From a virus, in IMG/VR virus record IMGVR_UViG_3300030116_006447, positions 1-48,680 of that record: DNA of 48,680 bases. One strand, given 5' to 3'. The notes under the pieces were generated by a model. It searched no databases. It saw only the letters and a program-made list of their open reading frames with translations, and was not told the DNA's origin. A program made the position numbers and the translations under genes. Of the stretch, positions 26,413 to 48,680 are shown piece after piece (the stretch's first letter is position 1; each line of letters begins with the position of its first letter).

Positions 26413-29115
26413 TTAACCTTGGAAATCCAAGAACTCAAATGGATCATGTCTAGGAGCACCAGACATTGCCATCATGCTATCTCCAGATGATCGAGGTGAT
26501 TCTTCTGGCATTTGTTGTGGTGGATCTTGAACCACAACTGTTTGCTGTGCTCCCTGCTCATATGGTGCATAATCAGACACTCCTGCAATCTGTCCAGCAA
26601 TATTTTGAATTGCTTGTGGTGTGGATGCAGCATTGAATCTTGCAAGATTAGTTGCACCCAATGCTTTTGAAGTGTTCTCATCAAGCAGAGACTGACCCGG
26701 AAGAATCTTAAGCATCTGCTCCCTACTAGAGAGTTTAGTCCCTGCATGAGATCTTTTTGGTTCAGGGTGTGCTTCACCTGATGCTATCATTACCTCTTCA
26801 CTAGAGTTTTCTCCTAACAATTTTTTCCAATCCTGCGGAACATTATTTGGAATGGGATCTGACTTTGATTTTTGTTCAGCGTAATGATAAAAATTTCCAT
26901 TGTCAGCAAACATAATATCAGTATCACCCATAAACTGACCCATACTACTGAATGCTTTAAAGTCAGTTCTACCATTTAATTTTTTCAAAGCATCAATAAT
27001 CATACCTTGATTATCCATCAACTGTTTGGCAAGAGCCTCATCTCTATATGCTTTACCACTAAACACCGCCTCAAACTGTCCAGGTGCAGTTCCAACACCC
27101 ATGATCGTATTCGGATATCTAGGATCAGCAACTCTATTGAGAACAGCAGCTGCAACAGCATACTCATCATCAGTCCCTCTCAGTGCTTCATGGCTGACGA
27201 TAAAAGCAAGGTCACTAAATTCTTGTTCACCCATGTCTTTGAGAGATCCTCCACCAGATCCTAATGAAGTTACTGCTGCTGATGGTGGTGGTGTATCTGA
27301 AGTGCCTGATGATGGAACGGAACTTTCTCTTTTTTTATCTTTATCCTCGTCATACTTCATTACGTCAAAGTTTTTATTAAGAGTCTTTGAAAGTTCTTTC
27401 TTAAATGCAGCAGTTACCCATTTACTTATATCATCGCTCGTCATACCTTTTGATATTCCTTCACCCACCAACATGTTAAGTCCATATCCAACGTTTTTAT
27501 ATTCTTCTTCATCAGGTGTTTCTCCAAGAGTTACTTTTGATCCAAGAGATAAAATAGGTCCAAAATAAGGATACTCTCCAAAAGAATTTCCAAGATCAAC
27601 AACTCTCTTAGTAATCGTCAATCCATCAGTTCCAATATTAGTGATACCAGTTCCTAAGAATTTTAAAAGTCCTCCTAATCCACTCTCAGTCTTCTCATCT
27701 TTAGGTTCTTTGATTTTTGTAAATGATGGTTTCTTTCTAATTGCTTTCCTTTGTTGTGTAATAGTTTCCTCTTGGAAACCTCTATCAACTTGACCTCCCC
27801 TTTGTTTTGCTTCTGGTTCCTCAGGCTCCGGTTGCTCTTCTTTTCCTCCAAAGAAAGCATCATACATAGCACCTGCTAACTCTGCTCCACCAGCACCACC
27901 TACAAAAGCACCAATGGCAGTTCCAACAAAAGGAACTGGGATTAAAGATCCAAGTGCTCCACCAATCCAAGTCCCAAGTCCAGAACCAACTGCTCTAAAT
28001 GCTGCCTTTCCAACTGAATCTCCAGAAACTACAGACAAAACAAATTCTATTAAACCACCTATAACTGGTATTCTTTTGACAAGTGGTCCTAATACTCTAG
28101 CAGCACCTTTTACTCCTAACTTACCAGCAGCTTGTTGTGCTGCTCTCTTCCCTGCTGCCTGACCGAATCTTCTTCTTGCTGCACCCTCACCATATCTTCT
28201 TGCGTATCTACTGGCAGCACCTTGGGAAGTGGTGCCTGGAGGTTGCATTCTTTTTGGTCTACCTGCTTGAAAAGCTTCCTGTGGTTTTGTTCTTACACGG
28301 GTTTTTGGAGTCTTTGCTGCACCACCTTGTCCTCCACCAAATCCACCAAGAGATTTTGCTCCCAATGCAAATGTCAATACTGTGATAGCAACTTCAACTG
28401 CCTTCATTATACCATCAAAGGCACCCTCTAATCCAACACTTTTAAATATATTTCTAGTCCCATCATAAACATTGTATGCAAAATTTATGAATGATGCTAT
28501 ACCGTCCACTAAGAAAATTCCAACATCTGTTACAAATTCAACAACCCTACCAAGACCTTTAAGTAAATCCAATATCTGAGGTAGATACTTAATTAATCTG
28601 ACTGCAAAATATCCCATCAGGATATTGCCAATGAAGTTTTTAAGAAAACCAAATATTCCTGTTTCAGGAAGTTTCATTACCTCACCTTTTTTCTTGTCAA
28701 TCTTTGAAGGTTTTGTTTCTAACTTTTTCTCTTGTGCAGCTTTGTCAGATTTCTCATCATTTTTCTTTTGCTCCTTTAATGCATCTCTATCTGCAATATT
28801 ATTTCCCTTCAGAATCTTCTCAATGAGGATCACATTACTGTAGATGGATTTCAAAGGATCTTTTCCAGGAGATACCGTATCACCAGTTTGCAAAGCTTTT
28901 ATTTCCTTTGCAGAAACCATCTTGACATTTGGTTTTATGATGGCACCACCTATACCATTATCCATTACATCTCTTCCGGGGATAATTCTTCTTGGTTGTG
29001 TTTTTTTCTTCCTTTCACGACCCAAGACTTTACTAGCAACGGCTCTGCCACCAGACTTGATCATGGGTCCGACAACTGCTCTTGCTCCTGCTCCTAATAA
29101 TGCGGGTAATGCCAT
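26413..29115 (-). CDS. Large tail protein with SleB-like cell-wall hydrolase domain (900 aa)
   Basis: Residues about 625-740 look like the SleB/Hydrolase_2 family: SDLAFIVSHEALRGTDDEYAVAAAVLNRV, then RYPNTIMGVGTAPGQFEAV, with the conserved Glu in SHEA. Members cut peptidoglycan. Hydrophobic stretches at about 155-218 (FLKNFIGNILMGYFAVRLI) and 382-418 (alanine/glycine-rich) are typical of tape-measure or hub proteins that insert into the membrane. The region before is Lys-rich and coiled-coil-like. It may fill the T4 gp29 position (tape measure) together with the next gene. A tail-borne lysin role is inferred. Confidence 0.8.
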   Translation of the reverse strand: MALPALLGAGARAVVGPMIKSGGRAVASKVLGRERKKKTQPRRIIPGRDVMDNGIGGAIIKPNVKMVSAKEIKALQTGDTVSPGKDPLKSIYSNVILIEKILKGNNIADRDALKEQKKNDEKSDKAAQEKKLETKPSKIDKKKGEVMKLPETGIFGFLKNFIGNILMGYFAVRLIKYLPQILDLLKGLGRVVEFVTDVGIFLVDGIASFINFAYNVYDGTRNIFKSVGLEGAFDGIMKAVEVAITVLTFALGAKSLGGFGGGQGGAAKTPKTRVRTKPQEAFQAGRPKRMQPPGTTSQGAASRYARRYGEGAARRRFGQAAGKRAAQQAAGKLGVKGAARVLGPLVKRIPVIGGLIEFVLSVVSGDSVGKAAFRAVGSGLGTWIGGALGSLIPVPFVGTAIGAFVGGAGGAELAGAMYDAFFGGKEEQPEPEEPEAKQRGGQVDRGFQEETITQQRKAIRKKPSFTKIKEPKDEKTESGLGGLLKFLGTGITNIGTDGLTITKRVVDLGNSFGEYPYFGPILSLGSKVTLGETPDEEEYKNVGYGLNMLVGEGISKGMTSDDISKWVTAAFKKELSKTLNKNFDVMKYDEDKDKKRESSVPSSGTSDTPPPSAAVTSLGSGGGSLKDMGEQEFSDLAFIVSHEALRGTDDEYAVAAAVLNRVADPRYPNTIMGVGTAPGQFEAVFSGKAYRDEALAKQLMDNQGMIIDALKKLNGRTDFKAFSSMGQFMGDTDIMFADNGNFYHYAEQKSKSDPIPNNVPQDWKKLLGENSSEEVMIASGEAHPEPKRSHAGTKLSSREQMLKILPGQSLLDENTSKALGATNLARFNAASTPQAIQNIAGQIAGVSDYAPYEQGAQQTVVVQDPPQQMPEESPRSSGDSMMAMSGAPRHDPFEFLDFQG

Positions 29116-29127
29116 GTCTTATTCTCC

Positions 29128-31701
29128 TTAGAACGGCATTGGAATACCAAGGATATTCCATTTTACCTTATTACCATTACCAGTCGATGCTGCATTGACA
29201 TCAGACCCACCAGTGTCTTTATCAACTGGATTATCAACATTACCAGAGGATGGCATTCTAATAACTTTCACATTGCTACCTCCATCAGATGGAGGTGATG
29301 GTGTAGAAACATTTGGATTCATCGTTCCCAACTTTGCTGCTGAAGACATACTTGTTGGTTGAGTAGAGGGTTCCATTCTACGTTTCATCAATGCATTACT
29401 GTATGCTTTAGCACCCGATCTTCCCATAGGGAAATCACTTCTCTTTGGTCTATTTGCTTTTTTCTTTGCTGCTGCTTCCTGCTTTTGTGTATTATATTTC
29501 TCCAACGCTTCACTATACTTTTTAGCACCAGATCTTCCCATAGGAAAATTACTTCTCTTAGGTTTATTAGGATCTGATTCAACACCAAGTATTCCAGATC
29601 CTAAAATACCACCAGTAACCCCACCGATGAAAGCACCTAATGGACCACCAAACATAGCACCAGTTGCTGCACCAGTCGCAGCGCCTGTTAGAGTGCCAAG
29701 GAGTTTATTCTGTGGTTTCACTTTTGGTTTTGACTCGGGAATTGTTCCACCGAACTTTATGTATCTTTCTCTCTCTGCAGGTGAAAATTCTGCTGGTGTG
29801 AATTTACCAGTTGCAGTGTTTAATTTACCTTGCACTCCATTCTTAAGTGCAAGCACGATGGAAGATTTTACAGTTACACTTGGTCCATCAGAACGTGATC
29901 CTGTTCCTGATCTTTGAGTTGTGGTTCCTAATGCTCTACCACCTTGACCAGTTACAACTGGACTTCCCTCATCGGGTGTATTCATCTGGGATGCACCAGC
30001 ACCCTTATAGTTAAAGTGTCCACCGTGTGATCCAGGATAGTCGTTTACAATCCAACCATACTTTGGACCATTTGCTCGCATCCATGTTTGAGAGGTTCCA
30101 TGAATATCAAGAGCATTGCCATATAGGTGATTGGAATTAGAAACTCCTCCTACATGTGCATTATACGATTTACTTCTCTGACTGCTAGCAATGTCAGAAC
30201 CTTTAACTGCACCACCAGAATCGGTGATCATTTTTCCAAATGCTGTAGCAGCCCCCCTTGAGAATACTCCTGGTCTACCTTTATAATCAGTTACTCCCCT
30301 TACACCAAATCCGCTTCCTGTGTTAGGATGAGATACTGACACAACATCGGGGACCATGCCCCCACCTCTAAAGGTAGGAAGAACAATTCCACCATCATAT
30401 GCTGTTTGAACTGTTGCAGTTTTTGGTTTATTTGCACCAGGACCACCATACTGTTTATTAAGTCCTAAAAAATGTTCTGCACCAACAGCATCAACTGTCT
30501 TTTTATTAATTACAATCTCTCCAGGTTGTGCTGCGATTAACTGAGTATCAGGACCTGCACCGGTAATATCACTTCCACTATTTGTTGTTATCTTACCAGA
30601 ACTAACTCCCCCACCATCATTGTAATAAGGTATCACTCCACCATGTCGGAATGCACCAGCCATGGGGTCTCCAGTGACACCACCAAAATCCATAGTGTCT
30701 TCAAGTTGAGTTCTTCCCTCAGGTGCATCTGGATCATTTGACTGAGTATTTGCCTGTGATACAGCACCAAGAGCAGCACCACCTACTATTGCAGTTATTG
30801 CTGCAGCAGCAGGGTTTCTCATAGCAAATCTAAGTGCAAACTTAGCAGCTGCAGCACCTAATCTTAGAGCACCTTTTAGCAGCATTGCAGATAATCTAAC
30901 AGCAAATCTACCGATGCTCGTTCCAAACAACAAGAATGCTGCTAAAAGTTTAGGTCCATGATCTACTAAAAACCTAACAACAGAATCAACTTTCTCTTTA
31001 TTTTTAGGATCACCAAACCAACCAATAAACTTAACAAGGAATCTTCCAATAATTATATTGAGAAAGAAATCAAAAATGCTATCAAGAGCACCCTTAACAG
31101 GTGCAATTATTTTCTCTGCTGCACTTGCTAAACCCTTAAAACTTTTCTCAAGGTTGCTTTCTTTTAGTTTTCTTTTATCTGCTTCTGCTTTCTTTCGATC
31201 ATATGATGCTTTCTTTTTCTTTAATCCATACTGTTCTTTCAGAATATCAGCAATGTTACTGACACTCTTTGCAATCTTTTCAAGTAACTTTTGATCTTTA
31301 TCTGTTTTTCTTGTTCTTGCTTTTTTCTTTTTACCACCCTCCTCTTCTTCATCAACCTCATCAGGTTTTGCATATGGTATGATTGAAGTCTTAGGTTTTA
31401 TATTTGCAGGTGGTAGTGCCTTTTGACCTATGCTAGCAGTGGTTGCACTCTTTTTCTTAAAACTGTCTGCAGATATCTTTGTTTTCTTTGCTTGTGGTTT
31501 TCTCTTTCCCTTTCTTATTTTAATAACTTCTTCCCTAAGAGCAGCACTTCTTGCATCACCCTTTCCCTTTGTTTTAAATTCTATAGTAGCAATTGCCTCC
31601 ATTAAGGCACTAAGATAATCCTCCTCTTCGGAGAGATTATCAAGGTCTACACCCATCTCTAAGAGTATTTCTATTGGATCGGTGGTAGTCCTAGATGCCA
31701 T
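29128..31701 (-). CDS. Large tail protein with M15-type peptidase-like domain (857 aa)
   Basis: Residues about 505-565 contain SNSNHLYGNALDIHG and, 30 residues on, GSHGGHFNY: the SxxHxxGxAxD ... HxxH pattern of zinc D,D-peptidases of the M15 group (VanY-like). Such domains cut peptidoglycan cross-links. The N-terminal part is Lys/Glu-rich, followed by membrane-like helices (about 205-300: FFLNIIIGRFLVKFIGW; LLAAFLLFGTSIGRFAVRL), as in tape-measure proteins. A FPMGRSGAK unit is repeated near residues 710 and 750. It overlaps the upstream gp51-position ORF by 11 bases and is followed by the SleB-type protein. Confidence 0.8.
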   Translation of the reverse strand: MASRTTTDPIEILLEMGVDLDNLSEEEDYLSALMEAIATIEFKTKGKGDARSAALREEVIKIRKGKRKPQAKKTKISADSFKKKSATTASIGQKALPPANIKPKTSIIPYAKPDEVDEEEEGGKKKKARTRKTDKDQKLLEKIAKSVSNIADILKEQYGLKKKKASYDRKKAEADKRKLKESNLEKSFKGLASAAEKIIAPVKGALDSIFDFFLNIIIGRFLVKFIGWFGDPKNKEKVDSVVRFLVDHGPKLLAAFLLFGTSIGRFAVRLSAMLLKGALRLGAAAAKFALRFAMRNPAAAAITAIVGGAALGAVSQANTQSNDPDAPEGRTQLEDTMDFGGVTGDPMAGAFRHGGVIPYYNDGGGVSSGKITTNSGSDITGAGPDTQLIAAQPGEIVINKKTVDAVGAEHFLGLNKQYGGPGANKPKTATVQTAYDGGIVLPTFRGGGMVPDVVSVSHPNTGSGFGVRGVTDYKGRPGVFSRGAATAFGKMITDSGGAVKGSDIASSQRSKSYNAHVGGVSNSNHLYGNALDIHGTSQTWMRANGPKYGWIVNDYPGSHGGHFNYKGAGASQMNTPDEGSPVVTGQGGRALGTTTQRSGTGSRSDGPSVTVKSSIVLALKNGVQGKLNTATGKFTPAEFSPAERERYIKFGGTIPESKPKVKPQNKLLGTLTGAATGAATGAMFGGPLGAFIGGVTGGILGSGILGVESDPNKPKRSNFPMGRSGAKKYSEALEKYNTQKQEAAAKKKANRPKRSDFPMGRSGAKAYSNALMKRRMEPSTQPTSMSSAAKLGTMNPNVSTPSPPSDGGSNVKVIRMPSSGNVDNPVDKDTGGSDVNAASTGNGNKVKWNILGIPMPF

Positions 31702-31861
31702 GCGCTTGTTGATGCTTTAACTTCTCTTCTTCAAGATGTTGTTGTAATAGTGCTACATAGATGTCCCGTTCCCACGGAAGCATATTTTCAATCTCTGTTA
31801 GTGAGTATTTATGGTACTGCATCAACGAAAAATTAAGACGATAGTAACCCTCCAGACTCAT
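31691..31861 (-). CDS. Small ORF downstream of gp26, likely made by -1 frameshifting
   Basis: A 56-residue frame (ATG at 31861; begins MSLEGYYRLNFSLMQYHKYS, then LTEIENMLPWERDIYVALL and a charged helical end). It lies at the position of T4 gene 51, which follows gene 26 and encodes a hub-assembly factor; sequence likeness to gp51 cannot be shown. It is in the -1 frame relative to gp26 and continues the open frame created by slippage on the T TTT TTC site just before the gp26 stop (see 31844-31885). Translation from its own ATG is also possible, but no good ribosome-binding site is seen. The helical second protein with the -1 fusion fits the tail-assembly chaperone pattern (lambda G/GT). Confidence 0.8.
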   Translation of the reverse strand: MSLEGYYRLNFSLMQYHKYSLTEIENMLPWERDIYVALLQQHLEEEKLKHQQAHGI

Positions 31862-31885
31862 ATGAATGAGGGCTACGCGAAAAAA
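31844..31885 (-). promoter_or_regulatory. Programmed -1 frameshift signal (slippery site plus stem-loop)
   Basis: On the minus strand the gp26 reading frame ends AGT TTT TTC GCG TAG. T TTT TTC (31885-31879) is a canonical X XXY YYZ slippery heptamer in the correct frame. Two bases on, GTAGCCCTC (31876-31868) can pair with GAGGGTTAC (31852-31844), a 9-bp stem with one G-T pair and a 15-base loop; the strong CCCTC/GAGGG core starts six bases after the heptamer. A -1 slip avoids the stop and enters the MSLEGYY frame after six codons (RVALIH). The predicted fusion is about 300 residues. Confidence 0.78.
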
Positions 31886-32592
31886 CTTGATAATCCCTCA
31901 AGTACAACTTCACTCTTAACTTTAGTATTAGGATTCGTAACAGAAATAGTATGAGAGAGTTTTGGCATTGTCTCAAAGAATGCCTCAATACCCTTAAACT
32001 GTGATGAGTTCATAGACTCAAGGAATTCAGTTACTTCTTTCTTGGTACAATCCGCAGTTGCCCATACTTCTTCTTCAGTGCAGATAGATTCAATACAAGA
32101 TGCAATCAGTTCAAATGATTGATCCATGGCATTCTGATCTTTGAAATCAAAGTTGCTCTTGATAAACTGATCCAAAGAAGGATACTTCATTACCATGGTA
32201 ATGGTGTCATCAACCTTTACTTGGTTCGTATGATCATCATTTTTCTTCACTTTGATATCATCAAGATCAATCGTCACGGGGACTTGAGTCTCTTCATCAT
32301 CTGGACAAATGATATTGACTTCAACAGTCTCTCCGACAGACTTACCACGAATGTTGAGAAACAGATACTCAATATCAAACGTGGGAAGTGATTCTACTTT
32401 GATTCCTCTCGTAAGAATGCAGTTCTTAATGACCGACTTAATGGCATTAGTGATTTGTTTTGTATCCTCACTCTCTAATGCGATTACAAGAACCTTCTCT
32501 TCTTTTACAAGAAAAGGTCTATATTTGATTTCTTGTCCTGTAGATGGCAACTCAAGCTCATAAGTTGGTGCAACAATCTTTGGTAATGGCAT
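31873..32592 (-). CDS. 26: Baseplate hub/tail assembly protein gp26-like (239 aa)
   Basis: Begins MPLPKIVAPTYELELPSTGQ, then KYRPFLVKEEKVLVIALES, the typical opening of T4 gp26-like baseplate proteins. A beta/alpha core follows (SLPTFDIEYLFLNIRGKSVGE; VNIICPDDEETQVPVTIDL), and the C-terminus ends GLSSFFA. In T4, gp26 belongs to the baseplate hub. The gene lies between a tube-like protein gene and the hub/tail-lysin genes. Its last codons carry a slippery heptamer, so a minority product may be extended by the downstream frame. A late-type box (CTAAATA) lies upstream. Confidence 0.85.
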   Translation of the reverse strand: MPLPKIVAPTYELELPSTGQEIKYRPFLVKEEKVLVIALESEDTKQITNAIKSVIKNCILTRGIKVESLPTFDIEYLFLNIRGKSVGETVEVNIICPDDEETQVPVTIDLDDIKVKKNDDHTNQVKVDDTITMVMKYPSLDQFIKSNFDFKDQNAMDQSFELIASCIESICTEEEVWATADCTKKEVTEFLESMNSSQFKGIEAFFETMPKLSHTISVTNPNTKVKSEVVLEGLSSFFA

Positions 32593-32629: not shown

Positions 32630-33457
32630 TTATGCGATAGCTTCTCCAAAAGGACCTCTTACTGTTCCATTAACAAAATCAGCAAAGTTAGTTGCATTTT
32701 GACTGTTATCGCCAAAGTTATTGTAATATTCTTGACTCAAATTCTCTTGCCTTAACCGTGGAGTCACTTGATATTGTGGAGATGGAGAGGTATTAGAATC
32801 AGAATCTCCAATACCATTGGTTATGTAGTATCTAATGTATGTCATTGATACTGTGCATTTTAAAAGTGAAGATGCATCATAAGACACTGGCATTGATGCG
32901 ATTGCTATTGGGAATGCCCTTACAAAATTATATGTAAGTCCAACCTGAGTTCCGTTTACAATACCATTATTTCCTTTAAATGATCCATCAAAATCTCTTT
33001 CAAACTTTATAATCCTAAGTGATTCAGTTGCATAGTCATCAACATAGTTCATTCTATAAAAATGATTAGCTCTCGCAAAATCACTATCGGTGCCTTCTCC
33101 AGTGATATATTCTTTCCAAAATTCAAATGCTCTAATTGGAAGATAGTTTTGAGCATCAACATAGAAGGTTAGATCTATTCTATCATCAAACATTCTCCTA
33201 TGTACATGTCTCTCAGTCACACCAGTGCGATCACTAGTTTGTTCTAAAGTTGCCAAAGAGGATCCTGGAAGGGATGCTTCAGAACATGCGAGGTTTAATC
33301 CACCTCTAAGAACTCCACCTTGAGGGTCTTCAAGTCCCCTACTGGACATGTGTGATTTTACTTCACTAGGAAAGTCAACATACATCATAAAATGCGAAGT
33401 CATCGCAGGTCTCAGTATTGTTGCTCTTATATCACTTAGTGTTTTTCTGTTAGGCAT
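32630..33457 (-). CDS. Tail-tube-like / gp54-like baseplate protein (275 aa)
   Basis: Begins MPNRKTLSDIRATILRPAMT. The core segment LEQTSDRTGVTERHVHRRMFDDRIDLTFYVD - IRAFEFWKEYITGE followed by RIIKFERDFDG and FVRAFPIAIASMPVSYDASSLL has the strand order of gp19-type tube proteins (the family that includes T4 gp19 and the tube initiator gp54). As a separate gp19-like gene usually sits elsewhere with the sheath, and as gp48 and gp53 lie across the divergent gap, gp54-like is the more likely identity. Enzyme motifs are absent. The start codon is only two bases from the divergent late promoter TATAAATA. Confidence 0.7.
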   Translation of the reverse strand: MPNRKTLSDIRATILRPAMTSHFMMYVDFPSEVKSHMSSRGLEDPQGGVLRGGLNLACSEASLPGSSLATLEQTSDRTGVTERHVHRRMFDDRIDLTFYVDAQNYLPIRAFEFWKEYITGEGTDSDFARANHFYRMNYVDDYATESLRIIKFERDFDGSFKGNNGIVNGTQVGLTYNFVRAFPIAIASMPVSYDASSLLKCTVSMTYIRYYITNGIGDSDSNTSPSPQYQVTPRLRQENLSQEYYNNFGDNSQNATNFADFVNGTVRGPFGEAIA

Positions 33458-44925: not shown

Positions 44926-45251
44926 TAGACCAGTTTTTGTTCCCGTAGATACTTAACAGTTTCCATACATCCACCAATTAGTGTATCATCCATGACAACT
45001 CTTGGGAAGGTGGAACCTTTCCCAAACTTATCATAGAATTCTTCTCTGGTGTAGTCCCTGTTAAGTTTATATATCACATGCTTCACTTCTGCAAGCTCTA
45101 ATACTTGCTGAACCTTGGTGCAATAAGGACAGCCATCCTTAGAATATACTGTAAATGTCATCGGTTTTTTAATGTCTTTCAAGTAATAAAGATTGGGCCA
45201 AGTATCACGAATGATCTCAGCCAGTTTGTACGGGGTGTCGTCGTTAATCAC
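44925..45251 (-). CDS. Glutaredoxin (CPYC)
   Basis: MTFTVYSKDGCPYCTKVQQVLEL carries the CPYC active site, followed by VIYKLNRDYTREEFYDKFGKGSTFPRVVMDD (cis-Pro in TFP) and LIGGCMETVKYL. Such enzymes reduce disulfides and donate electrons to ribonucleotide reductase. I use the GTG at 45251, which overlaps the talC stop and has an in-frame, soluble 30-residue extension; the ATG at 45161, which gives 78 residues, is the alternative. Coupled downstream of talC and petE. Confidence 0.9.
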   Translation of the reverse strand: MINDDTPYKLAEIIRDTWPNLYYLKDIKKPMTFTVYSKDGCPYCTKVQQVLELAEVKHVIYKLNRDYTREEFYDKFGKGSTFPRVVMDDTLIGGCMETVKYLREQKLV

Positions 45252-45891
45252 TCTTTACCGATGCCCAGTCTTGATCGAAAATCTCAAGACCTTTATCGGT
45301 AAGGATATGGTCATACATTTGATCAAACACTTTAGGTGGCATAGTGCAGATTTCAGCACCATTATACCATGACCTAATAGCACGTTGAACATTACGAATA
45401 GATGCAGCAAGAACCTGAGTTCTGACTCCATGAATGCGATACAGTTCAGAGATAGATCGTACAACCTCCAGACCTGCCACTGACTGGTCATCTAACCTGC
45501 CTACAAATGGACTTACATAAGTTGCCCCTGCCTTTGCTGCTAGGACTGCCTGAGAGGCACAGAAGATGAGTGTGACGTTGACATTGATGTTCTGATCAGA
45601 GAGAGATTTACAAACGGCAAGACCCTCCCGTGTGCAAGGAACTTTTACGGTGCATACTTTTCCGAATTTCTCATAAAGACGTTTGCCTTCACGATACATT
45701 TCACCCTCATCACCGACAACTTCCATGCTGATGTCGTTTACACCAATGTCTTTAATTTCTTGATAGACATCCTCAGGATTTCTACCACTTTTCATAATCA
45801 AAGTGGGGTTGGTAGTGACACCATCTACCAGTCCCGTTTTAAAATATTCGTTAATAATTTCTGTGTCAGCAGTATCAAGAAAGATTTTCAT
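45244..45891 (-). CDS. talC: Transaldolase TalC
   Basis: From the ATG at 45891 (MKIFLDTADTEIINEYFKTG; an ATG seven codons upstream overlaps the petE stop). The FSA/TalC-type layout is complete in 215 residues: DTADTEII at the start, VTTNPTLIMKSGR, the Schiff-base lysine in CTVKVPCT, TLIFCASQAVLAAKAGATYVSPFVGRLDD and VLAASIRN. Transaldolase runs in the pentose phosphate pathway; cyanophage TalC is thought to push carbon to NADPH and ribose for nucleotides. Together with the CP12-like gene it fits the known redirecting of host carbon metabolism. Confidence 0.97.
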   Translation of the reverse strand: MKIFLDTADTEIINEYFKTGLVDGVTTNPTLIMKSGRNPEDVYQEIKDIGVNDISMEVVGDEGEMYREGKRLYEKFGKVCTVKVPCTREGLAVCKSLSDQNINVNVTLIFCASQAVLAAKAGATYVSPFVGRLDDQSVAGLEVVRSISELYRIHGVRTQVLAASIRNVQRAIRSWYNGAEICTMPPKVFDQMYDHILTDKGLEIFDQDWASVKSD

Positions 45892-45908
45892 GTAATTGTG
45901 CGTGTACT

Positions 45909-46232
45909 TCATTCAACATGCACCGTCCCGATCATTCCAGCACCCTTGTGAGGACCACACCAATAGGTAAAGTCTCCTGCCTCAGGGAATTTAATATCAA
46001 ACTCTTCACCAGGAAGCATGGCAAGTGCCTCATGACCGAGTTCTGGATGATCTTCAACGATGACATTATGTGGAGGTAGCATATTGTTCACAAAGTGAAC
46101 TGATTCTCCTGCCGATATTGTAACCTCTGCTGGATCAAAAATCAAGTTTCCATTTGATCCCATTTGAACATCTACTGCCCATGCGGGAGCAGCAAGAAAA
46201 AGTGTAGCCAAGAACGCGAAGATAAACTTCAT
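45909..46232 (-). CDS. petE: Plastocyanin
   Basis: 107 residues with a signal peptide of 19 (MKFIFAFLATLFLAAPAWA, cut before VDV), so it is targeted to the thylakoid lumen. The copper ligands are visible: His in PPHNVIV, then Cys, His and Met in YWCGPHKGAGMIG with the right spacing (C-x2-H-x4-M). Plastocyanin carries electrons from cytochrome b6f to photosystem I. The mature part (88 residues) is a little shorter than typical host forms. It overlaps the possible early talC start. A promoter overlaid on a terminator lies upstream at 46251-46286. Confidence 0.96.
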   Translation of the reverse strand: MKFIFAFLATLFLAAPAWAVDVQMGSNGNLIFDPAEVTISAGESVHFVNNMLPPHNVIVEDHPELGHEALAMLPGEEFDIKFPEAGDFTYWCGPHKGAGMIGTVHVE

Positions 46233-46250
46233 CTAAGTTTATGCAACTTT

Positions 46251-46279
46251 GTTATATAGACAAAAACCCCCCTGGTTAA
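46251..46279 (-). promoter_or_regulatory. petE: Probable petE promoter overlapping a terminator
   Basis: On the minus strand TTAACC (46279-46274), exactly 17 bases, TATAAC (46256-46251): four and five of six consensus bases. The -35 lies in the loop of the terminator at 46266-46286, and the spacer includes the T tract and the shared TTTTTGTCTATA sequence seen in the thyX element. petE starts 18 bases on. Confidence 0.55.
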
Positions 46280-46286
46280 GGGAGGT
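46262..46286 (-). terminator. Terminator before petE
   Basis: ACCTCCC (46286-46280), a seven-base loop, GGGGGGT (46272-46266) and TTTTTG on the minus strand; one G-T pair in a 7-bp stem. It follows the small gene at 46326 and ends the photosystem II transcript. Confidence 0.8.
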
Positions 46287-46297
46287 CTGAAAGGACA

Positions 46298-46313
46298 GTC
46301 AGGACATCCTGAC
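46298..46313. repeat. Perfect short inverted repeat
   Basis: GTCAGGA-CA-TCCTGAC, 7-bp arms with a two-base centre, 13 bases after the stop of the 72-residue gene and before the terminator. Possibly a second transcript-end hairpin or a protein site. Confidence 0.55.
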
Positions 46314-46325
46314 CCACAACATCCT

Positions 46326-46544
46326 CTATTCGTCTTCATACAATTTCTCCAGTTTCTCTCTTGATAAGTCAACGTACATGACCTCATCGCCAGGGTTAGG
46401 TGCTTCTGGGTGACGTGGTTTAGGTGGTTTATTCATCTCCACATTAAGAGATTGAATATTCGCCCACATCATCGCAAAAGCAGCACCTGCGATAACAGCA
46501 AAACAAGAGAAATAAACGAAGACAAGCCAACCGTTCACCGCCAT
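46326..46544 (-). CDS. Small membrane protein (72 aa) next to psbD
   Basis: One transmembrane helix near the N-terminus (GWLVFVYFSCFAVIAGAAFA) followed by a soluble Pro/Glu-rich tail (NKPPKPRHPEAPNPGDEV, YVDLSREKLEKLYEDE). No confident family assignment. Being in the photosystem II block, it could act in thylakoids; that is inference. It overlaps the end of the next upstream gene. Confidence 0.78.
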   Translation of the reverse strand: MAVNGWLVFVYFSCFAVIAGAAFAMMWANIQSLNVEMNKPPKPRHPEAPNPGDEVMYVDLSREKLEKLYEDE

Positions 46545-46750
46545 GTCCTCCTATTAAATTCAATGCTTGCTTCCACTCTGATTTGACACTCTTCAGTGCC
46601 ATCATGCCATGGTGTTACTCCTGACTCCCATGCTGTTTCATGTTTGAAACCCATACGAAGCAAGTGTGCATAGTCCCAAGCAGCAGTTGCTGGATGGCAA
46701 GTAGGGTACGATGGAAATCCAACAACAGCAGCAATTAAACTAGGGAGCAT
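46535..46750 (-). CDS. Small protein (71 aa) after psbD
   Basis: Start at the ATG at 46750, which shares a base with the psbD stop (TGATG), so it is coupled to psb[21 protein letters not shown] opens with a short hydrophobic stretch, then AWDYAHLLRMGFKHETAWESGVTPWHDGTEECQIRVEASIE. Conserved-looking, function unknown. Confidence 0.78.
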   Translation of the reverse strand: MLPSLIAAVVGFPSYPTCHPATAAWDYAHLLRMGFKHETAWESGVTPWHDGTEECQIRVEASIEFNRRTWR

Positions 46751-47805
46751 CACAGTGCATTACCTCTTGGAAGAACTTCTTCTGGGAACACAAAGTTCTC
46801 ATGTGGTTGGTCAACTGGTGCTAACCATGCACGGAGACCTTCATTCAGGAGAATGTTCTTGGTGTAGAAGGTCTCGAATTCGGGATCTTCTGCTGCTCTG
46901 ATTTCTTGGGAAACAAAGTCATAAGCACGAAGGTTGAGAGCAAGACCAATAATACCGATGGAACTTGTCCAAAGACCCATAACAGGAACAAACAGCATAA
47001 AGAAATGCAACCACCTCTTATTACTAAACGCAATACCAAAGATCTGAGACCAGAAACGGTTTGCAGTAACCATTGAATAGGTTTCTTCCTCTTGAGTTGA
47101 GTCAAATGCCTTGAAAGTATTTGCTTGTTCACCGTCCTGATACAGAGTATTCTCTACTGTAACACCATGAATGGCAGAAAGCAAGGCACCACCCAGAATA
47201 CCTGCGACTCCCATCATGTGAAAGGGGTTGAGTGTCCAGTTATGAAATCCTTGTAGAAAAAGTAGGAATCTGAAGATTGCCGCGACACCAAAACTCGGCG
47301 CAAAGAACCAACTGGATTGTCCAAGTGGGTAGATGAGAAATACAGAAGTAAATACGGCAATAGGACCTGAAAAAGCAATCGCATTATAGGGACGGATTCC
47401 GATTAGACGAGCAAGTTCAAACTGCCTGAGCATAAAACCGATAAGAGCGAAGGCTCCGTGGAGCGCCACAAAATTCCAGAGTCCCCCAAGTTGGCACCAC
47501 CGGACGAAATCGCCCTGAGCTTCAGGACCCCAAAGTAGAAGAAGAGAATGACCCATAGCATCAGCAGGCGTTGACACAGCCGCTGTAAGAAAATTAGCAC
47601 CCTCAAGGTAGGAAGACGCCAATCCGTGGGTGTACCACGACGTAACAAAAGTAGTACCAGTGAGCCAGCCCCCAATTGCAAGATAAGCAGTGGGAAAAAG
47701 AAGTAATCCAGACCAGCCCACAAAGACAAAACGGTCGCGTTTAAGCCAGTCATCAAGGACATCGAACCACCCCCTTGTCGGTTGTTGAAGAGTTGAAGCT
47801 ACCAT
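46750..47805 (-). CDS. psbD: Photosystem II D2 protein
   Basis: Complete at 351 residues (typical D2 about 352). Recognised from long identical-looking segments: [26 protein letters not shown]-like [58 protein letters not shown] (with the His for chlorophyll/iron) and [25 protein letters not shown]. With D1 it forms the reaction centre; phage copies keep light energy flowing during infection. No promoter box was evident in the short gap before it. The stop couples to the next small gene. Confidence 0.99.
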
Positions 47806-47807
47806 AA

Positions 47808-48068
47808 CTATTTAAAACCTCCATTTGATTTTTTCTTTTTTTGTTTCCTATCCAAGACATTTACTTTACAGTTGCCCCAGCTACGAACTGACTGAAACCA
47901 ATATGCTCTGAGTTGATCATAATCATCAAAGATAATTGATTGTCCGTTACATTCTAACTGGTATTGATGTCTATCGTAGGGTTCATCAGAGGTTTGTGCA
48001 AACCATTCAGGCAATTCTTTTGGCCTTGCAGATAAGACTCTTTCCTCTGGATCTAGTTTACCAATCAT
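47808..48068 (-). CDS. Small protein (86 aa) between psbA and psbD
   Basis: [20 protein letters not shown], then [41 protein letters not shown] and a Lys-rich end ([11 protein letters not shown]). Soluble, one Cys, possible small alpha/beta domain. I recall small genes at this place in T4-like cyanophages, but no function. Two bases separate its stop from psbD. Confidence 0.78.
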
Positions 48069-48099
48069 GACAATAAGTAAGATTACTTAACATTTGAAG

Positions 48100-48128
48100 A
48101 GAAAAAGAAAGGGTCCCGAAGGACCCTT
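48100..48128 (-). terminator. psbA: psbA terminator with TTCG loop
   Basis: AAGGGTCC-TTCG-GGACCCTT on the minus strand: perfect 8-bp stem and an extra-stable UUCG tetraloop, followed by TCTTTTTCTCTTC. It lies 20 bases past the psbA stop and separates psbA from the psbD unit. Confidence 0.9.
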
Positions 48129-48148
48129 CCCTAACTATTCAGTTTGTA

Positions 48149-48680
<532 letters not shown>

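Follow-up and report, generated by a model that had tools for sequence, protein, structure and literature searches.

Gene 26 of a T4-like marine cyanophage contig very probably gives rise to two forms, one short and one long, of a single tail-assembly chaperone, the long form by a programmed -1 frameshift at the heptamer T TTT TTC close to the end of gp26. The contig is viral record IMGVR_UViG_3300030116_006447 (48,680 nucleotides), the whole of which we refer to as the window. Its gp26 frame ends AGT TTT TTC GCG TAG, and it is followed by a small open reading frame (ORF) that carries a separate gene name under conventional annotation. After a -1 slip, translation reads FF-RVALIH-MSLEGYY... 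and stays open to position 31691, which gives a predicted fusion of gp26 with the 51 part of 300 residues. The features of the locus are as follows.

31873..32592, minus strand: gp26 ORF, short form, 239 amino acids, TAC-N-like (TAC, tail assembly chaperone)
31879..31885, minus strand: slippery heptamer T TTT TTC, codons AG(T) TTT TTC, in the phase X XXY YYZ
31873..31875, minus strand: 0-frame stop TAG, one codon past the heptamer
31691..31879, minus strand: -1 frame extension after the slip, 62 codons plus stop
31691..31861, minus strand: small ORF, conventionally annotated 'gp51 baseplate hub assembly catalyst', 56 amino acids from its ATG

An earlier note on this DNA had described the in-frame heptamer at the end of gp26 and a -1 slip that reaches a 56-residue ORF after six codons (RVALIH). 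We found both, the heptamer at 31879-31885 on the minus strand. In profile searches gp26 matched PF12322 T4_baseplate (E=2e-77, 260 bits against a cut-off of 24.5) and phrog_150 baseplate hub (E=2.7e-80, 270.8 bits), and the 56-residue ORF matched phrog_634 'baseplate hub assembly catalyst' (E=5.4e-26). The PF12322 part and the 51 part lie in different frames in the window, unlike the uninterrupted gp51 of T4. Only one copy of PF12322 was found in the 48.7-kb record, and a tblastn search with gp26 gave a single place per record across 741 phage records.

As a bare string TTTTTTC is ordinary in the window (20 occurrences against 22.9 expected). We scanned 34 window ORFs, nearly all of at least 100 amino acids, for X XXY YYZ in slip phase with AAA or TTT as YYY. 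This gave 39 heptamers. The -1 frame is shut within 26 codons at 38 of them, and the gp26 site alone has a long open -1 frame (62 codons) and lies one codon from the stop. The arrangement of the gp26/51 slip site is far beyond chance.

Conservation of the heptamer

The relatives comprised 156 distinct gp26 loci from IMG/VR and phage records, with 78 representatives used for the codon and hairpin analyses; gp26 scans seeded with Cr30 and with Vibrio CZ01 gave two extra loci each. An in-phase TTTTTT[C/T] at the end of gp26, together with a 51 ORF that continues in the -1 frame, was present in 152 of the 156 loci (TTTTTTC in 145, TTTTTTT in 7), and the gap from heptamer to stop is 3 nucleotides in 146 of these 152. 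By inspection, the heptamer-bearing loci include those of Kyanoviridae, a Pelagibacter phage, Caulobacter Cr30, Pseudomonas pf16, Stenotrophomonas Ps15, Aeromonas phiAS5, Sinorhizobium phiM12 and Vibrio CZ01; T TTT TTC is present in PX29 and P-HM1 too. In Sinorhizobium phiM9 and in Rhizobium P10VF the slip site reads T TTT TTG. The same T TTT TTG, with Leu as the A-site codon, was seen at this site in Pootjesviridae (loci L189:1501-2372 and L191:1507-2375). Ackermannviridae-like Vibrio loci without the canonical heptamer were noted at L188:1402-2405, L190:1402-2294 and L091:1492-2420.

Four of the 156 loci were scored as lacking an in-phase heptamer: T4, Karamvirus, Vibrio phage YC and L175. 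The last is scored in this way solely through an earlier in-frame stop in gp26, and the T-run is still found at its 3' end. L175:1501-2202 is a near-identical copy of the HTVC008M gp26, and the in-frame stop is possibly a sequencing error or the mark of a broken gene.

When the 234 scored columns of the representatives' codon alignment are ranked by synonymous constraint, the three codons of the heptamer come 2nd, 3rd and 8th. The codon before the Phe pair ends in T in 78/78 representatives. Where it encodes Ser it alternates between AGT and TCT, and elsewhere it is replaced by GCT, GAT, AAT or GGT with the T kept. For the first Phe of the heptamer 78/78 use TTT, and for the second 76/78 use TTC, set against 66% TTT for Phe codons overall. 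An alignment of relatives had been set beforehand, in the earlier note, as a check on the frameshift, and the outcome was favourable: nearby codons vary in the relatives, but the heptamer and the -1 frame persist, and most relatives also keep a hairpin (see below).

A conserved run of six to seven T could also serve transcriptional slippage, where RNA polymerase adds or drops a U in the T6 run and the mixed mRNAs encode the fusion. Documented transcriptional slippage occurs mostly at longer runs. The run is not growing in these phages (six T followed by C in 145 of the 152 heptamer-bearing loci), its phase relative to the codons is in every case the one that slippage of tandem tRNAs requires, and downstream lies a hairpin of the kind that stimulates ribosomal slips. 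We consider transcriptional slippage exceedingly improbable as the source of the fusion.

Coding across the junction

From the slip site onward the relatives share a conserved -1-frame peptide (FFRxAxxHxxLExYY...). R7 and H12, both upstream of the annotated ATG, are at least 90% conserved, whereas the conserved columns do not include the Met position; S-CAM1 has Asn at the position of the ATG. In 16 distinct loci, ACG-2014d and HTVC008M among them, neither ATG nor GTG nor TTG occurs within the first 14 codons past the slip. Since these relatives have no usable start near the beginning of the small ORF, fusion is the simplest way for them to make the 51 domain. The genome annotations of S-CAM1 and ACG-2014d omit the small ORF.

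These data bear directly on a rival view in which the small ORF is a gene of its own, gp51, read by re-initiation at the ATG at 31861 after the gp26 stop, with the T-run incidental. In the window and in many relatives an ATG lies 11 nucleotides past the stop, as that view expects, and in phiM9, P10VF, Cr30, K469 and 1.244.A the annotated 51 start shares one base with the gp26 stop, which alone would give the -1 phase. However, no Shine-Dalgarno-like motif precedes the small-ORF ATG in 58 of the 61 ATG-bearing representatives, and the ATG of the window is inside the hairpin. Lack of the motif is weak evidence alone, because the gp26 start itself is often without one (none in 45 of 78 representatives). 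Re-initiation also has to contend with the 16 loci that keep the 51 domain without a nearby start codon, with conservation of the -1 frame that reaches upstream of the ATG to the slip site past an unconserved Met, and with the synonymous constraint on the heptamer codons. We therefore regard a separately initiated gp51 as a very unlikely explanation of the locus.

A hairpin downstream of the slip site

GTAGCCCTC pairs with GAGGGTTAC just downstream of the heptamer, as the earlier note had claimed. The 43 nucleotides after the heptamer fold with a minimum free energy (MFE) of -15.7 kcal/mol (z = -3.2; 1 of 200 shuffles was equally good). The hairpin has a 9-bp (base pair) outer stem, then a 3-nucleotide bulge and an inner stem of 4 bp; its apical part holds the ATG. 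Its arms, drawn from MFE and covariation, are placed as follows.

31864..31876, minus strand: hairpin 5' arm, outer stem 31868-31876, inner stem 31864-31867
31844..31859, minus strand: hairpin 3' arm, inner stem 31856-31859, 3-nucleotide bulge, outer stem 31844-31852

Folding at this place is shared by relatives. The mean MFE of the 78 representatives is -8.9 kcal/mol, compared with -4.5 kcal/mol for synonymous-codon shuffles of the same -1-frame peptide, and 55% of the 78 loci fall at or below the 5th percentile of this null, compared with 10% in a control region 60 nucleotides further on. RNAalifold found no consensus structure for all 78 representatives together. Inspection indicated that clades pair in different registers, and the clades were therefore tested separately. 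The first set, A1, consisted of 24 sequences (the 22 closest IMG/VR representatives, the window and S-CAM1, L082) that were not picked for pairing. Under the window structure 72.4% of its cells are paired, a value above shuffles and to be compared with at most 45.2% in slid registers, and 8 pairs are changed on both sides. A second clade, A2, uses another register, in which 90.3% of its cells are paired, a percentage biased upward because A2 was picked partly by eye for that register. The shift is visible between L110-L165 and the window hairpin (31844-31876), with paired columns that sum to 52 versus 56.

Several observations weigh against a programmed frameshift driven by this site and hairpin. 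Several heptamer-bearing loci (L097, L108, L038 and L080) are without a stable local hairpin. The outer stem begins just 2 nucleotides past the heptamer. The usual spacing from heptamer to stem at other sites is 5-9 nucleotides. With a spacing of 2 nucleotides, part of the outer stem must be melted at the moment of slip. The Ackermannviridae-like Vibrio phages hold the small ORF in the -1 frame without the canonical heptamer. Finally, the ATG at the start of the small ORF is kept in the window and in many relatives, and some separate 51 protein may therefore be made as well. Set beside these points, conservation in 152/156 loci and the 16 loci without a start codon support the programmed frameshift that the earlier note had proposed.

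Proposed mechanism

Established at the level of sequence are the site, its phase and conservation, a constraint on -1-frame coding that spans the junction, the hairpin, and homology between the predicted fusion and T4 gp51; from there we infer slippage in vivo, the slippage rate and the chaperone role of each form. Most ribosomes would read gp26 through to TAG and release the 239-residue short form. A minority, with tRNA-Phe in both the P-site and the A-site on U UUU UUC and stalled by the downstream hairpin, would slip back by one base. These ribosomes would bypass the stop and append 62 residues (the 'gp51' domain), and a 300-residue long form would result. In lambda, gpG coats the tape measure and gpGT recruits the tail tube protein (PMC5009743). 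By analogy, the cyanophage tape-measure protein may be coated by the short form, and the domain that the long form gains may engage the tail-tube or hub machinery; a lambda-type chaperone role for the two forms is a plausible extension of this likeness. The counterpart in T4 would be the same two products made from the paralogous genes 26 (short) and 51 (long).

The slip site could instead be real and used for translational coupling or regulation only, with a fusion that has no role. T4-type phages hold the same fusion as the stand-alone gene 51, the product of which is essential, and hub assembly chaperones are listed as including gp26 and gp51 of T4 (PMC3004832). We give a fusion without a role next to no likelihood. 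In T4 gp51 is required yet absent from the particle, and evidence for gp26 as a possible part of the hub has been discussed (PMC3004832).

A broader proposal takes in the members of the T4 superfamily that are not of the T4 type (cyanophages, SAR11 and rhizobial phages, and some Vibrio and Aeromonas phages). In these phages 51 is probably always the frameshift-encoded C-terminal domain of gp26 and not a separate protein, made with TTTTTTY and a hairpin that shifts register, and T4-type phages probably swapped the frameshift for duplication into genes 26 and 51.

Neighbouring genes and predicted structures

The genes next to gp26 and the small ORF were assigned by their profile matches.

32630..33457, minus strand: upstream gene, tail-tube-like (PF23849, E=6e-13; phrog_45)
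29128..31701, minus strand: downstream gene, 857 amino acids, possible tape-measure/tail-lysin type (phrog_35029, unknown; PF08291, E=1.9e-5, M15 peptidase-like stretch)
26413..29115, minus strand: downstream gene, 900 amino acids (weak tape-measure similarity, phrog_794, E=5.9e-8; Hydrolase_2 stretch)

The matches suggest that the products of 29128-31701 and 26413-29115 are tape-measure or tail-lysin proteins with wall-degrading parts. At the far end of the window (45244-48676), PsbD-, PsbA-, plastocyanin- and transaldolase-like proteins, the usual host-derived genes of cyanophages, were recognized by eye from the translations.

The AlphaFold model of gp26 has a pLDDT (predicted local distance difference test) of 87.5. 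Its top PDB match is the HK97 tail assembly chaperone 2ob9 (gp13), at a non-significant E=0.6 (prob 0.35). The model of the 51 domain (pLDDT 83.9) gave no significant match in BFVD, and PDB sequence searches with gp26 and T4 gp51 returned no matches.

Relation to T4 and other known systems

The earlier note had put the small ORF at the place of T4 gene 51. This does not hold: T4 gene 51 encodes 249 amino acids and lies on the opposite strand from gene 26 (208 amino acids). The positions of these paralogous, oppositely oriented genes are L093:7803-9229 in T4 and L092:687-2118 in Karamvirus. In T4 gp51, residues 1-201 form a PF12322 domain (E=3.9e-52), and the 51 domain (phrog_634) comes after it. 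A profile of the predicted fusions aligns to Karamvirus gp51 without a gap across the junction (...sFFrlalaheslesyyklnfal...), so that the T4-type ORF is independent support for the frame junction that we predict. Judged by these alignments, T4-type gp51 is the predicted frameshift product turned into a stand-alone gene, and the short and long forms of T4 are the paralogues 26 and 51. Like T4 gp26, the window gp26 belongs to PF12322, and homology between the window fusion and T4 gp51 extends through both domains and the junction. The two systems differ in that T4 has two paralogous genes and no heptamer at the end of gp26, whereas the window has one gene and a predicted frameshift. The reading of gp26 as a tail-assembly chaperone, also made in the earlier note, fits this paralogue evidence.

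Cyanophage gp51 has been described as ~20% of the length of T4 gp51 and without its first ~200 residues (Sullivan et al., 2010, PMC3037559). The frameshift offers an explanation: the missing ~200 N-terminal residues would be gp26, joined by the predicted slip. It also corrects an annotation carried by many genomes of marine phages; the 51 region has matches in 548 phage records. According to a 2016 review, long-tailed phages 'except T4' have conserved G-T frameshifting (PMC5009743). Our results bear on this statement, as frameshift and two-gene versions of one chaperone pair would occur inside one phage superfamily.

The earlier note was not aware of this route as an established one in T4-like phages, and that view is in part out of date. 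Vladimirov et al. (2022) is cited elsewhere for T4-like phages in which a short chaperone gene is accompanied by a longer gene for the fusion (PRFect, PMC10885494), and the same work, by Vladimirov, Gautam and Davidson, is cited in the phage Adele paper for T-run slip signals in T4-like TAC-N genes (PMC12846349); as these citing papers present it, the chaperone genes of T4-like phages had already been identified there. An explicit statement of a cyanophage gp26/gp51 frameshift was not found in the literature searched, although Vladimirov et al. (2022) may cover it. Since the mechanism is known, a specialist's surprise should be moderate.

Lambda gpG/gpGT is the model for such an arrangement. 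As predicted for the window, a -1 slip close to the 3' end of the gene for the short form yields a longer, rare product. The gene is found in the tail cluster, ahead of long genes, which in the window have weak tape-measure similarity. The slip site is GGGAAAG in lambda and TTTTTTC in the window, and the window protein is of the PF12322 family, with a ~62-residue extension, in a phage with a T4-type contractile tail; we claim no sequence similarity between the two. Other tail assembly chaperones made by -1 frameshifting include P2 E/E+E', the Mu-type proteins and many more. The TAC locus of phage Adele (Vandenendeviridae/Andersonviridae; PMC12846349) is similar in its -1 frameshift at a T-run at the 3' end of TAC-N and in a downstream ORF mis-annotated as a separate hypothetical gene, and differs in its slip motif, GTTTTT, and in belonging to different phage families. 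The lambda G/GT-type scheme is already established, and cyanophage gp26/51 is a well-supported new instance of it, not a new kind.

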